Shown here one piece after another: positions 4,786 through 32,303 of a DNA stretch of 32,303 nt (the stretch's first letter is position 1; each line of letters opens with the position of its first letter). Below the pieces are notes generated by a model. The model worked only from the letters and a program-made list of their open reading frames with translations, made no database searches and had not been told where the DNA came from. The translations under genes were made by a program, and so were the position numbers. Origin of the DNA: Thermus sp. 2.9 (lineage in GTDB: Bacteria > Deinococcota > Deinococci > Deinococcales > Thermaceae). The stretch lies in the NCBI RefSeq assembly GCF_000794385.1, contig NZ_JTJB01000024.1, forward strand, positions 1 to 32,303, read 5' to 3'.

Positions 4786-6524
4786 CCGCACGGCTTTACG
4801 CCCTCATGGCCTTCTTCCTCCTGGCCTTTGGCCTCCTTGGGCTTAGGGCCTGGCAACTCCAGATCCTGGAGCACGAGAAGTACGCCCTAAAAAGCCAAGG
4901 GAACTACCTGAAAACCGAAGGCATCCCCGCCCCCAGGGGGAGGATCCTGGACCGCAAGGGCCGGGTCATCGCCCAAGACCGGTTGGTGGTGGACCTGGTC
5001 TACGAGGGCGGAGAGGTGGCCTACAAGGAAAGGCTTCTTCCCCTTCTGGGCCTAAAGGAGCTTCCCAAGGAAGCGGGGGTGCTCAAGGCCGGGGTGCCGG
5101 AACACCTCCTCCCCACCCTGGCGGAGCTCACCGCCGGGCAGAAGAACCTGAAGCTGGTGGAGCGCATTGAGCGCCACTACCCCAACCCCATATCCGGGCC
5201 CGTCTTGGGCTACGTTCTGCAGGCCAATGCCGAGCAGGTGAAGCGGGGGTATAGCCCGGACGAGCAGGTGGGACAGGCGGGCCTCGAGGCGGCCCTGGAG
5301 TCCCACCTGCGGGGCAAGCGGGGAGTCAAAGCGGTGGAGGTGAACGTCCGGGGGGAGCGCCTGCGGGAAACCATCCTGGAGGAGCCCACCCCGGGGCAGG
5401 ACGTGGTCTTGACCCTAGACCTGGACCTGCAGCGGGCGGCGGAGCGGGCCTTGGAGGAGGCCTTAAGCGACATCAACGCCGGCCGCCGGCTGAACGGGCT
5501 TCCCCCCGAGACCCGGGTCAAGGGGGCCATCGTGGCCCTGGACCCCCGCACCGGGGAGGTCCTGGCCATGGCCAGCGCCCCCTCCTTTGACCCGGGTCTC
5601 TTCGCCAAGCGCCCCGTGCCCAAGGAGGTGCAGGACCTCCTCCAGGACAAGGACCTTCCCCTCTTGAACCGGGCCCTGCAACCCTACACCCCGGGCTCCA
5701 CCTTCAAGCTCGCCACCAGCTACGCCCTCCTGGAGGAGGGGTACGTGGGCCCGGCCACCACCTACCGCTGTAGCCCCTACATCGTCTACGGGGGCCAGGT
5801 GCGGCGCAACTGGGCCACCCGGGACCTGGGCCCCATGACGGTGCGGGAAGCCATCGCCTGGAGCTGCAACACCTGGTACTACCAGGCGGTGGCCCAAGAC
5901 CCCTTGGGCTTGGTGGACCGCCTGGCGGCCCGGGCTCGGCTTCTGGGCCTCGGGGAACCCACGGGGGTGGAGGTGGCGGAGAAAACCGGCCTCCTCCCCA
6001 CCCGCGCCTGGAAGCGGGAGGCCTTGGGGGAACCCTGGTACCCTGGGGAAACCCTCTCCGTGGCCATCGGCCAAGGCCCGGTCCTGGCCACCCCGGCCCA
6101 GGTCGCCCGGATGCTGGCCACGATAGCCAACGGGGGGAAGAAGCCCCAGCTCCACCTGGTGAAGCGGATCGGCAAGGAGGAGGTGAAGCCTACCCTAAAG
6201 CCAGTGCCAGGCCGCTTCTTTACCGTTCTCCAGGAAGGCCTGCGCAAGACCGTCGCCGAGGGCACGGCCCGGCATGTGCTGGGCAACTTCCCCGTGCCCA
6301 CCGGGGGCAAGACGGGCACCGCGGAAACTCCCGGCAAGCGCCGGGGCCTGGAGCACGCTTGGTACATGGGCTACGGCCCCACGGACCCCAACAGCCCCTA
6401 CCCACCCCTGGTGGTGGTGGCCTTCTTTGAAAACGGCGGGGAGGGAAGCCGGGTGGCCTTGCCGGCGGTGCGCAAGGTGATGGAGGCCTACTGGAAGGTG
6501 TCGGGGGAAGCCCAAGCCCGGTAG
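4782..6524 (+). CDS. mrdA: Penicillin-binding protein 2, cell-elongation transpeptidase
   Basis: 580 residues, class B PBP. A single N-terminal membrane anchor (about 5-25) is followed by the non-catalytic domain, with RGRILDRKG at about 52-60, and the transpeptidase domain. Catalytic motifs are S306-T-F-K309, S361-C-N363 and K510-T-G512. It cross-links peptidoglycan during lateral growth together with MreC, MreD and a RodA partner not present here. Its start overlaps the mreD stop (ATGA). Its TAG stop forms the first three bases of the -10-like TAGAAT in front of minC. Confidence 0.95.
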   Translation: MTARLYALMAFFLLAFGLLGLRAWQLQILEHEKYALKSQGNYLKTEGIPAPRGRILDRKGRVIAQDRLVVDLVYEGGEVAYKERLLPLLGLKELPKEAGVLKAGVPEHLLPTLAELTAGQKNLKLVERIERHYPNPISGPVLGYVLQANAEQVKRGYSPDEQVGQAGLEAALESHLRGKRGVKAVEVNVRGERLRETILEEPTPGQDVVLTLDLDLQRAAERALEEALSDINAGRRLNGLPPETRVKGAIVALDPRTGEVLAMASAPSFDPGLFAKRPVPKEVQDLLQDKDLPLLNRALQPYTPGSTFKLATSYALLEEGYVGPATTYRCSPYIVYGGQVRRNWATRDLGPMTVREAIAWSCNTWYYQAVAQDPLGLVDRLAARARLLGLGEPTGVEVAEKTGLLPTRAWKREALGEPWYPGETLSVAIGQGPVLATPAQVARMLATIANGGKKPQLHLVKRIGKEEVKPTLKPVPGRFFTVLQEGLRKTVAEGTARHVLGNFPVPTGGKTGTAETPGKRRGLEHAWYMGYGPTDPNSPYPPLVVVAFFENGGEGSRVALPAVRKVMEAYWKVSGEAQAR

Positions 6525-28065: not shown

Positions 28066-30828
28066 CTACGCCGCCCGCGCCTGCCCCTCGCCCCGAAGAG
28101 CCTCGGCCACGAAGGCCGCCATAACCCCCAGCATGAGCCCCAGAGCCACCGCCAGGGCGAAGATGAGCCCCCGCTTGGGGGCCACCTTCTCGTAGATGGG
28201 GTAGGCGGGGGCGATGACCTGGGCCAAAGAGTTCTGGGAGCTGGCCAGCTCGATCTGCAGGTCGGTCTTCTTCTGGGAGAGGGCCAGGTAGGCGTTCTTG
28301 GCCAGCTCCAGGGCTTGGTTCAGCCGGTCCTGCTCCACCTGGGCCTTGGCCACCCGCTCCCTGAGGAGGGCGATGCGGGCCTCCACCTGGGCGATGCGGG
28401 CCTGCAGGGCCGCCTTTCGGGCCAAAAGTCTCGCCTCCTCCGCCTGGGCGTCGATGAGGGCCGAGCGCAGGCGCTGGTACTCGGGGTTGGGGTTGTCGAA
28501 GGCCAAGTCCTGGGCGGTGAGGTTGGCGATCTGGTCGTAACGGGCCCGGAAGGTCTCGTAGGCGGCCTTTTTGGTGTTGTACTCCAGGAGCACCGCCTCC
28601 TTCTCGCGCTCCTGGGCGGCCACCTGGCCGCGAAGCGCCTGAATGCGGCGATCGTACTCCTGCACGTTGCGCTCTAAGGCCTGGCGCTCCGCCTCCAGGG
28701 CCGCGCGCTCGGCCTCGAGGGCCACCACCTCGTCCCGGAACCGGAGCACGTCCGGGCTCACCTCCCGCAGCCTCGTGTCCGGCTTCGCCGCCAAACGCTT
28801 CAGGTTCTCCGCATACCGGTACACCGCATTGTAGATGTCCCGAGCCACCTCCAGCTCCGTGGAAAGCCGCGCCCGCTTCGCCTCCTCCTCCGCTATCCGC
28901 TCCTGCAACGACGCCACTTGCGGCTGAAGCCGCGCCTCCTCATCCCGCAAAGCCCGCTCCTCCCGGTCCAGGGCCGCCAAATCCGCCCGCAGGTCCAGCG
29001 CCGTGAAGAGGAGCTTCTGGTGGGCGGGGTTCAGTTCCTGGTTCTTGAGCTTCAGGCCCACCAAGGCCTGCAGGTCCCCTCCCCGGGCAATAGCGGCGGC
29101 CACCACGGGATCCGCCACCACTTCCCTTTCCAAGGCGAGCAGCTTGGGCTCCTTGGCTAGCTCCGCCTCGGCCTCCGCAAGGCGCCTTTGCAGTACCGTC
29201 CGCTCCGTGGGGATCTTCTCCAGGCGCTGCCGGATGCTCGCCACCCGGTCGGCAAAACCCCCAAGCTGTTGCTTCAACACGTTGAGCTGGCTCTCTCGCT
29301 GGTACGCCTGCCACGCGGCCTCCGCCGCCTTCACCCGGGCGTCCGCCTCCTTTAAACGCTCCGCCACCAGGGCCTCCGCCTCCCTCACCGTAAGCCCCGC
29401 CACCAGGTTCTCTATGGAAAGGCTGGGAAGCTCACCCTTGAACTCCTCAAAGCGTTGCCGGGCTACACCCAAGGCCTCCTGAACCCGGGCCCGCTCCGTG
29501 ATAATCCCGTTTAAACGCTGCCGGATGCTCGCCACACGGTCGGCAAAGCCCCCAAGCTGCTGCTTCAGCACGGATAGCTGGTTCTCCCTCTGGTAGGCCT
29601 GCCACGCCGCCTCCGCCGCCTTAAGCCGCGTGTCCGCCTCCCTCAGGCGCTCCGCCACCAAAGCCTCCGCCTCCCTCACCGTCAAACCCGCCACCAGGTT
29701 CTCTAAGGACAAGCCCGGCAACTGGGCCTTGTACTCCTCCAAGCGGGTCTGGGCTTCCCGTAGCTGGGTTTCCTTAACCGCCAAGTCCTTGCGAATGCCA
29801 AGAAGCCGCGCCTGCGCGGAAGCCAAGCCCTCCGTATAGGCAGAGATCTCCGCCTGCCAAACGGGGATGCGCTCTTTCCCCTTGAAGCGCTCCAATGCCT
29901 GGGCCGCTTGAACGTAGCTCTGCCGAGCCTTCTCCGTTTCCCGCCGCAGGTTCTCTTGGGCTTCCCGAAGACGCTTGCCAATGATGGCCAGCTGCTCGGG
30001 ACTCGTGCCAATGGGCACCAAGGCAACCTGACGCTGGACTTCGGCCATCAAGGCCTCCATGCGCCCGCGAACCGCCGCCAGGTCCCGCTCCAGGGCGAAA
30101 AGCTCCTGGTCCAGGCTTACCCTTTCCCCCGTTTTGGCGTCTAGCTCCGCCTTGTCCTGAGCCAAAGTAGAGGCTCTTTGGAAGGCCTCCCAGCGCGCTT
30201 GGGCTTCTTGGTAAGTCCTTTCAGCTGGTGCGATCTGCTCTTCCAGGGCTTGTAGGTTGGCCTCGAGGCGCGCCAAGGGAATCCGGTTCACCCGCCTGGT
30301 CACCGCCTCTGCCCAAAGGTTTGCCGCCTTGGCCGCCACCTCGGGGGTAGGCGCCTCCACGCTCAGGGAAGCCACCACCGGGGGCACCTGCCCCTGGGGC
30401 ACTACCTGCTCCTGCTGCCGGGAGGTTTCGTTTTTGATCTTGAAGTCCTTCACCATCCGCTCCAGGCCTGGGGTGCCCCCCTGGTCCTGCCAGGCGGTAG
30501 GTAGCTTCCCCTCTTGTTTCAAAGTTTCCCAGACCTCTTTGGTCACCTCTTCGGAAAAGGCCAGGGCCTTAAGGCCCTCAAAGGTGAGGAGGTTCTGTCC
30601 CTGCACCTGGATGCGCTGCTCCAGCTGGGCCTGCACCTGCACCGGGGAAACGTTCACCGTGGCGGTGGAGGCGTAGCGGGGCTCGGCGATGAAAAAGCCG
30701 TAGATGAGGGCTAGGACGCCGAAGGCTAGAGGTGGGCTTAGAATCCAAAGCTTTTGCCGCTTGAGGACCTCAACGATATCCCGCAAGGAAAGCTCTTCGC
30801 TGGGGGTTCCCACCATCACGGGGTCCAC
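28066..30828 (-). CDS. Very long Wzz-like polysaccharide chain-length / co-polymerase protein
   Basis: 920 residues from GTG 30828. An N-terminal membrane segment (about 27-47) after LSLRDIVEVLKRQKLW, a periplasmic part with SLSVEAPTPEVAAKAANLWAE near 154-174, a huge helical coiled-coil region (about 185-870), and a C-terminal Pro-rich motif and membrane segment (APAYPIYEKVAPKRG 873-887, then 888-909). This is the Wzz/GumC/PCP layout, but typical members have 300-750 residues. No tyrosine-kinase domain follows. Residues 364-557 are two tandem 97-residue copies. A -10-like TATAGT overlaps the GTG, so GTG 30819 or ATG 30816 may be the true start. It follows the CapD-like gene. Confidence 0.85.
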   Translation of the reverse strand: MDPVMVGTPSEELSLRDIVEVLKRQKLWILSPPLAFGVLALIYGFFIAEPRYASTATVNVSPVQVQAQLEQRIQVQGQNLLTFEGLKALAFSEEVTKEVWETLKQEGKLPTAWQDQGGTPGLERMVKDFKIKNETSRQQEQVVPQGQVPPVVASLSVEAPTPEVAAKAANLWAEAVTRRVNRIPLARLEANLQALEEQIAPAERTYQEAQARWEAFQRASTLAQDKAELDAKTGERVSLDQELFALERDLAAVRGRMEALMAEVQRQVALVPIGTSPEQLAIIGKRLREAQENLRRETEKARQSYVQAAQALERFKGKERIPVWQAEISAYTEGLASAQARLLGIRKDLAVKETQLREAQTRLEEYKAQLPGLSLENLVAGLTVREAEALVAERLREADTRLKAAEAAWQAYQRENQLSVLKQQLGGFADRVASIRQRLNGIITERARVQEALGVARQRFEEFKGELPSLSIENLVAGLTVREAEALVAERLKEADARVKAAEAAWQAYQRESQLNVLKQQLGGFADRVASIRQRLEKIPTERTVLQRRLAEAEAELAKEPKLLALEREVVADPVVAAAIARGGDLQALVGLKLKNQELNPAHQKLLFTALDLRADLAALDREERALRDEEARLQPQVASLQERIAEEEAKRARLSTELEVARDIYNAVYRYAENLKRLAAKPDTRLREVSPDVLRFRDEVVALEAERAALEAERQALERNVQEYDRRIQALRGQVAAQEREKEAVLLEYNTKKAAYETFRARYDQIANLTAQDLAFDNPNPEYQRLRSALIDAQAEEARLLARKAALQARIAQVEARIALLRERVAKAQVEQDRLNQALELAKNAYLALSQKKTDLQIELASSQNSLAQVIAPAYPIYEKVAPKRGLIFALAVALGLMLGVMAAFVAEALRGEGQARAA
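29158..29448 (-). repeat. Second copy of a 291-bp intragenic tandem repeat
   Basis: Codes residues 461-557 of the Wzz-like protein. The core (473-536, from ENLVAGLTVREAEALV to VASIRQRL) differs from the first copy in only about 5 of 64 residues. Confidence 0.9.
29449..29739 (-). repeat. First copy of a 291-bp intragenic tandem repeat
   Basis: Codes residues 364-460. The phrase CACCAGGTTCTCT occurs at 29401 and 29692, exactly 291 bases apart, and similar stretches continue along both copies. DNA identity is high in the core and falls at the edges. Confidence 0.9.
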
Positions 30829-30834: not shown

Positions 30835-32303
30835 CTATCCAGATCCTTCCCCAGCCGGCACACCCTCAGGCCGGTAGCTGGGGATAAGGCGCTTCAGCAT
30901 CTTGCGCACCTCTAAACCATCGCCTTGGCGCGCTATCCGATAGAGCTCTTCCAGAAGATGGGGGAAATCCGAGGGGAGTTGGGCGTTCCTGGCCACCCAG
31001 ATTTTCTCATGCCGGCTGGCCTCCGTTCCCTCCTCGGCGGTGAGAAGTTCCTCAAAGAGCTTCTCCCCAGGCCGTATGCCTGTAAAGACAATATCTATGT
31101 CCCGGTAAGGCTCCAGGCCCGCCAAGCGTATCAGGTCCTTGGCTAAGTCCAGGATCTTCACCGACTCCCCCATGTCCAGAATGTAGACCCGTCCATTCTC
31201 CCCTATACCCCCAGCCTGCAACACCAACTGCGCAGCCTCAGGGATGGTCATGAAGTAGCGGCGCATCTCGGGATAGGTCACGGTCACCGGACCGCCCCTC
31301 TTGATCTGCTCCATGAAAAGGGGTACCACGCTCCCCCGGCTTCCCAGGACATTGCCAAAGCGCACGGAAACAAACACCTGATCGGGCCCTGCCCGCAAAG
31401 CTCCCCAGGCCACCACCTGCTCCGCCACCCGCTTGCTGGCCCCCATCACCGAAGTGGGGTTGACCGCCTTGTCGGTGGAGATGTTTACCAAGCGCTCCAC
31501 CCCGAACTCAAGGCAAAGCTCCACCACGTTCTGGGTCCCCCATACGTTGTTGAGAATGGCCTCACCGGGATTGGCCTCCATCAAGGGCACGTGCTTGTGG
31601 GCGGCTGCATGGAACACCACCTGGGGCCTATGGAGCTGAAAAATGTAGCGAAGTCGGTCCCGGTCCTGTACATTGGCTACCACCACCCTGTACTTAAGCT
31701 CAGGCCAGTTCGCCTCCAACTCTTTTTCCAAAAGAAAGAGGCTATTCTCACCGCGTCCTAAAAGCACCACCCGCTCCGGATGGAAGCGGGCCACCTGCCG
31801 CACCAGCTCGCTCCCAATGGACCCCCCCGCTCCCGTGACCAACACCACCCGCCCCTCCAAGTAACCTGCGATCTCTTCCAAGTTAAGGCGCACAGGCTCG
31901 CGGCGAAGGAGGTCCTCCAGCCGCACCTCCCGTATTTGGGAAATCTCCACCCGGCCAGAGAGGATCTCGTAAATCCCTGGCAGGATACGGTACCGAACCC
32001 CCACGGCCCGGGCCAGGTTCACCACCTTGCGCACCACAGCCCCAGGAGCCGAAGGCATGGCCACCAAAACCTCTTCCACCTCCAAAGCCCTGGCCACCTT
32101 GGGAAGCTCATCCAAAGTGCCCATCACCCGGATACCGGCGATGGTCTGCCCCCTCTTGTTGGGGTCATCGTCCAGGAAGCCCACAGGGTAAAGGCCAGCC
32201 TCCGGGTGGCGGAGCATCTCCCTAGCCAACATGCTCCCCGCCTCCCCAGCCCCCACCACCAGGACCCGGCGCCCCCTAATCCCTCGCCCCCTTTTGCTCT
32301 CCC
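30835..32303 (-). CDS. CapD/FlaA1-like sugar-nucleotide 4,6-dehydratase, 5' end missing
   Basis: The frame is open to the window edge, and 488 whole codons are visible. An internal GTG at 32259 is not the start: the upstream residues RRVLV complete the Rossmann strand RRVLVVGAGEAG. Such proteins have N-terminal membrane segments, a first Rossmann domain (GAGEAGSML) and the catalytic SDR domain, with VTGAGGSIGSELVRQ, AAAHKHVPLME, NISTDKAVNPTSVMGASK (a Ser-Met-Lys site as in long CapD/WbpM enzymes) and RFGNVLGSRGSV. It probably acts on UDP-GlcNAc in surface polysaccharide synthesis, at the membrane. A line at 31681-31740 counts 48% GC, far below the rest of the window. Confidence 0.92.
   Translation of the reverse strand, partial: ESKRGRGIRGRRVLVVGAGEAGSMLAREMLRHPEAGLYPVGFLDDDPNKRGQTIAGIRVMGTLDELPKVARALEVEEVLVAMPSAPGAVVRKVVNLARAVGVRYRILPGIYEILSGRVEISQIREVRLEDLLRREPVRLNLEEIAGYLEGRVVLVTGAGGSIGSELVRQVARFHPERVVLLGRGENSLFLLEKELEANWPELKYRVVVANVQDRDRLRYIFQLHRPQVVFHAAAHKHVPLMEANPGEAILNNVWGTQNVVELCLEFGVERLVNISTDKAVNPTSVMGASKRVAEQVVAWGALRAGPDQVFVSVRFGNVLGSRGSVVPLFMEQIKRGGPVTVTYPEMRRYFMTIPEAAQLVLQAGGIGENGRVYILDMGESVKILDLAKDLIRLAGLEPYRDIDIVFTGIRPGEKLFEELLTAEEGTEASRHEKIWVARNAQLPSDFPHLLEELYRIARQGDGLEVRKMLKRLIPSYRPEGVPAGEGSG

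Follow-up and report, generated by a model that had tools for sequence, protein, structure and literature searches.

The window analysed here, a 32,303-nucleotide stretch of DNA from Thermus sp. 2.9, carries on its minus strand a gene encoding a 920-aa protein (Table 1). The original prediction had described this protein as Wzz-like, and the domain searches agree, since both the N-terminal Wzz domain (PF02706, 43.6 bits against a cut-off of 25.5) and the C-terminal GNVR domain (PF13807, 34.2 bits against 27.7) exceeded their Pfam cut-offs. In the AF2 model, a helical rod is flanked by helices 26-47 and 886-911, which were taken as TM1 and TM2, and a Pro-rich segment, PAYPIYEKVAPKRG, and a Gly motif, GLMLG, were found at TM2. 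The protein stops after TM2, and the fused C-terminal tyrosine kinase that is a trait of PCP-2a proteins is absent. Foldseek matched it to WzzE, WzzB, Wzc, and KpsE, all of them co-polymerases, and to generic coiled coils. Judged from its sequence, the protein is a membrane-anchored polysaccharide co-polymerase (PCP) of the Wzz type, and no second member of the Wzz family was found in the genome. Matches to SMC, Rad50, and filament proteins (NCBIfam, Pfam, Foldseek) were set aside as coiled-coil background, being below cut-off or having very low TM scores, and a match of the N units to PF18088 (glycosidase 20C C-terminal) was under its own cut-off. A literature search for a Thermus Wzz found no paper.

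The gene belongs to a polysaccharide synthesis locus. Its neighbour, in the same operon context, is a CapD-like UDP-sugar dehydratase gene which lacks the N-terminal membrane part because the contig ends there, and the remaining polysaccharide locus lies on another contig. A CapD-like gene also adjoins wzz in six relatives (G014, G020, G001, G002, G011, and G006). The loci of relatives contain glycosyltransferases, Bac_transf, and EpsG, the EpsG-family protein being a candidate for the polymerase. Downstream, the neighbour of wzz in the window is a futalosine hydrolase gene; at five loci of relatives (L032, L033, L034, L035, and L044), wzz stands where the polysaccharide locus ends, beside the gene of the GTPase Obg. 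No Poly_export protein (Wza/OPX, PF02563) was found in any of eight Thermus genomes, including that of the window, using a search that gave a match in 4 of 14 known genomes taken as controls. Likewise, a search of the eight genomes for a partner BY-kinase (a PCP-2b trait, TIGR01007) returned nothing over the cut-off, only weak ParA/MinD-like matches.

Table 1. Features of the wzz gene and its neighbour in the window. Positions are those of the window; residues are those of the 920-aa protein.
Feature	Position	Strand	Basis
Wzz/GNVR polysaccharide co-polymerase (PCP) gene, 920 aa	28066..30828	-	ORF; PF02706 E=3.8e-11 and PF13807 E=2.5e-8, both above cut-off
Wzz domain, residues 11-100, TM1 inside	30529..30798	-	PF02706 match; AF2 helix 26-47
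N-arm joint 1, residues 269-276, PIGTSPEQ	30001..30024	-	AF2 helix break; conserved motif
N-arm unit copy A, residues 362-458, first part probably native	29455..29745	-	Repeat alignment; set apart from copy B in unit tree
N-arm joint 2 (copy A), residues 369-383, LPGLSLENLVAG	29680..29724	-	AF2 helix break
N-arm unit copy B, residues 459-555, most likely imported	29164..29454	-	Repeat alignment; clusters with copy B of G014 (bootstrap 96, 99% nt)
N-arm joint 3 (copy B), residues 476-480	29389..29403	-	AF2 helix break; residues 461-474 in N2C2 relative
Putative recombination tract, residues 420-649, from the end of copy A through the linker, copy B, and rod tip into the start of the C-arm unit	28882..29571	-	Comparison with G014
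Single C-arm unit, about residues 619-709, boundaries approximate	28702..28974	-	Duplicated (91 aa) in G014, G019, and G024; single in window
C-arm joint, residues 679-691, RLREVSPD	28756..28794	-	AF2 helix break
C-arm joint, residues 769-781, AFDNPNPEY	28486..28524	-	AF2 helix break
GNVR domain, residues 835-908, with Pro-rich segment and TM2	28105..28326	-	PF13807; AF2 helix 886-911
CapD-like UDP-sugar dehydratase gene, truncated by contig end, same operon context	30835..32259	-	PF02719 E=2e-115

The first half of the rod contains a direct repeat (29200-29464 and 29491-29755) with 81% identity over 265 nt, and the repeat alignment reproduced the two predicted 97-residue copies, exactly 291 bp apart and both in the single frame of the gene. 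The best internal offset of the protein is 97 aa, aligning residues 362-446 with 459-543 (71 of 85 residues and 208 of 255 nt identical). This repeat scored 62.6, compared to at most 7.4 after shuffling of residues and at most 11.4 after shuffling of heptad blocks, which rules out chance or heptad periodicity as its origin. Since identity fades into unique linker on each side, the boundaries of the two units were placed at about the positions listed in Table 1. The core was predicted to differ at about 5 of 64 residues, which is close to the computed value of approximately 6 of 65; the high DNA identity claimed for it was overstated, as the core DNA is 84% identical between copies, with a longest exact common word of 20 bp. 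The dS between copies A and B (0.67) falls in the range observed between Thermus species (0.64-0.89) and above the within-gene values obtained elsewhere (0.04-0.30). The two copies are so dissimilar that an assembly error is unlikely to have created the second one, and the same junction linker is present in three other species.

Orthologs were compared from Thermus and nearby genera, with one genome per species. Pairwise alignment placed them on three rungs of a length ladder, named here by the number of extra blocks in the first (N) and second (C) half of the rod: N0C0 (624-630 aa; G005, G015 (T. composti), G002, G011 (T. scotoductus), and G036, from another genus), N1C1 (817-822 aa; G009, G020, G001 (T. 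altitudinis), G018, and G022 (T. parvatiensis)), and N2C2 (1005-1009 aa; G014, G019 (T. caliditerrae), and G024). The unit number thus varies among Thermus species (0, 1, or 2), as had been anticipated. From 628 to 817 aa, about 98 aa are added in the N half and about 91 aa in the C half, and from 817 to 1005 aa, 97 and 91 aa, respectively. The numbers of N and C blocks are equal in every relative compared on these rungs, and the window protein, with 97 aa added in N only, is alone in being N2C1. The original prediction overlooked the matching block of the other arm, and this changes the meaning of the repeat: growth normally adds a block to both arms, and of these two the window allele has one.

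Other forms of the gene were also encountered. Proteins of 383-429 aa (G006, G010, and G012) contain none of these blocks, and several Thermus genomes gave no match to the wzz gene at all. At L024 (G003) and L026 (G023), remnants of the gene were seen, interrupted by stop codons or truncated where a contig ends. In the complete genome of T. parvatiensis RL (G022; L037, positions ~5800-6200), the Wzz domain is in a separate 102-aa frame, reflecting either a frame-shift or a sequencing error. In G028, the ortholog is divided over two short contigs (L047 and L048) whose ends fall within the N and the C unit, a pattern to be expected if that gene has repeats of both.

The blocks extend beyond the repeat initially noticed. 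When the family profile was compared with itself, the best diagonals were at offsets of 97, 99, and 196 in the first half and of 90, 91, and 181 in the second half, and even the sixth-best diagonal (41.1) exceeded the best of 100 heptad-block shuffles (40.2). On the evidence of these profiles, the repeating blocks are ancient and fill the whole rod. Each block contains one helix break, marked by SPEQLA or LPxLSxENLVAG in the N arm and by REVSPDVL or FDNPNPEY in the C arm, and the AF2 models have three such joints per arm in the N2C2 protein, compared to three in the N arm and two in the C arm of the window protein.

In the AF2 model of the window protein (19 sequences, monomer, pTM 0.32), most of the rod was predicted with confidence, and pLDDT fell to 32-47 at approximately residues 370-475, that is, at the extra N block. 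The equivalent block of the N2C2 protein of G019 reached 82-88 with the same 19 alignment rows. Alignment depth at this block being equal in both proteins, the N2C2 control counters an explanation of the low pLDDT by depth, which is most simply explained by the lack of a C partner for this block. These predictions support a periplasmic part built as a long antiparallel helical hairpin in which facing blocks are paired, and a change of blocks in both arms together is what such a hairpin demands.

Comparisons between rungs showed near-identical segments in otherwise different genes. G009 (N1C1) and G019 (N2C2) are 94-100% identical in each common block and 97.5% over the N flank, have the same four genes upstream, and are one block apart in each arm. 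In G022 (N1C1) and G002 (N0C0), the stems are mostly 94-100% identical up to about the first joint in both arms, and the distal rod is swapped between roughly matched positions of the two arms. In the two arms, identity between G011 and G014 is 96% and 98% close to the first joint, beyond which they differ. Near-identical stems with a swapped distal rod were thus seen in two pairs of loci, L041 (G002) with L037 (G022) and L042 (G011) with L031 (G014). Taken together, these alignments indicate repeated recombination in the wzz gene among Thermus species.

Compared with G014, the window gene differs at only 18 of 690 positions in the tract (97.4% identity), and at 419 of 2061 outside it (79.7%), with a dlogL of 80; the same scan with six other species gave dlogL values of at most 38 and, in five of the six, tracts that spanned nearly the whole gene. 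Within the tract, 336 bp contain two mismatches with G014 (99.4%), with exact runs of 164 and 170 bp. By comparison, housekeeping DNA of the window is 90% identical to that of G009 and only 88% to that of G014, the lowest value of the seven Thermus genomes compared, so that an identity of 99.4% over 336 bp is foreign to this background. A tree of the tract joined the window and G014 with a support of 98, and the trees of the flanks did not join them. Copy B of the window shares 99% identity with its counterpart in G014 and 84% with the adjacent copy A, compared to 93% between the N copies within G014. Since copy B and the rod tip are near-identical to those of one other species, they were most likely imported ready-made, and the tract most likely reached the window gene by recombination from another Thermus species. 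The left breakpoint inside copy A and the right one inside the single C unit would account for the N2C1 state.

We therefore consider it probable that the protein is a modular hairpin and that a segment of an N2C2 gene recombined into a gene of the N1C1 type, yielding an N2C1 product. The hairpin would consist of repeating blocks with a single joint each, approximately 97-99 aa long in the outgoing arm (N) and 90-91 aa long in the returning arm (C), and its length would evolve stepwise by gain or loss of one block in both arms, with facing blocks paired. The extra N-arm block of this strain would not be of local origin. A segment of an N2C2 gene like that of G014 would have recombined into a resident gene that we infer to have been of the N1C1 type, the first of the two crossovers falling within its N unit and the second within its C unit, at a lower C-side joint. 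Donor and recipient would thus have been joined at unequal positions on the two arms, leaving one N block unpartnered.

Four other readings were weighed. The true gene may be N2C2, with arms equal in reality, if two similar C units were collapsed into one during short-read assembly. In favour of this, the draft genome is in 62 contigs, identity among the C units of relatives reaches 98%, with exact runs of 60-231 bp, the tract ends where C1 and C2 of the donor are nearly identical, and the contigs of G028 break within both units. We regard such a collapse as unlikely, as the contig is continuous across the site, no orphan C1-C2 junction was found in the window assembly, from which small contigs may have been dropped, and a crossover in vivo in the same region accounts equally well for these features. 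A search of the G009 assembly for an orphan N-arm junction also found none. The transfer may have run in reverse, with copy B and the tip passing from the window lineage to that of G014. The tract tree leaves the direction unfixed, but the N copies disagree in the window and agree in G014, and in the window gene each breakpoint falls within a unit, which makes this direction rather improbable. It is also quite doubtful that the N unit forms a helical module of its own, such as a polymer-binding hairpin, which could do without a partner in the C arm and leave N2C1 as stable as N2C2. The gene is open over 920 aa and the joint motif LPxLSxENLVAG is well conserved; against this, N and C counts match in all other members of the ladder, sister genes change both arms together, and AF2 confidence is lost only at the unpartnered block. 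Finally, although the copies lie head-to-tail and in frame with a conserved core, the originally predicted recent tandem duplication in this lineage is very unlikely given an inter-species dS, a linker identical in three other species, and a copy B far closer to that of G014 than to its neighbour. The window gene is thus most likely an unbalanced recombinant allele, and its repeat half of a paired growth step.

Among known systems, WzzE and WzzB (PCP-1), which regulate the chain length of O-antigen and ECA, resemble the Thermus protein in their Wzz domain, two TMs, and periplasmic helical hairpin, but WzzE chains in the PDB have about 360 aa, compared to 920 aa here, and we know of no block repeats in WzzE or WzzB. 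KpsE (PCP-3, known from KpsMT-KpsE structures) matches the fold over about 200 residues of the base, but it has an ABC-transporter partner and is without a long modular rod. E. coli Wzc (PCP-2a), the partner of Wza, matches the C-terminal part of the 920-aa protein (phmmer, 6e-7) and its fold. Wzc likewise extends helical arms into the periplasm, and cryo-EM of Wza-Wzc showed a 360-angstrom channel that is formed by docking of the Wzc arm on Wza (PMC12881504). Unlike Wzc, the Thermus protein has no kinase domain and its rod is several times longer and modular; with no OPX protein found in the eight Thermus genomes, its arm cannot use Wza as a docking partner in the manner of E. coli Wzc. The arms of SMC proteins, an unrelated family, offer an analogue, being long antiparallel coiled coils with discrete natural length classes that function only in certain length regimes (PMC5344682), whereas the steps in Thermus are whole homologous blocks of 91-97 aa moved by recombination.

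At 0.15 nm per residue and with joints ignored, the rods would measure approximately 12, 26, 40, and 53 nm for the rungs, in a periplasm reported to be about 70 nm wide in T. thermophilus (PMC4463427). The most likely role of the rod would be to extend the co-polymerase arm so that it organises or guides polymer export across this wide periplasm. A role as a ruler for polymer length is possible; in Wzz proteins, control of modal length has been placed at several surface regions, and timer, chaperone, and ruler models are all left standing, with no support for a simple size rule such as the original prediction invoked (PMC7809406, PMC12004945). A bolder and speculative proposal, to which we give little weight, is that the co-polymerase replaces the missing Wza-type exporter, stacked paired blocks forming a conduit whose reach would be adjusted, about 14 nm at a time, to the ~70-nm periplasm, and that recombination shuffles rod lengths between species and produces unbalanced intermediates like the window allele.

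If the proposed history is correct, these results would show a long antiparallel coiled coil changing its length by homologous blocks in both arms via recombination, one genome having preserved an intermediate of the process. The G009/G019 pair, for its part, constitutes a natural experiment on whether the length of the regulator sets polymer length or envelope reach.
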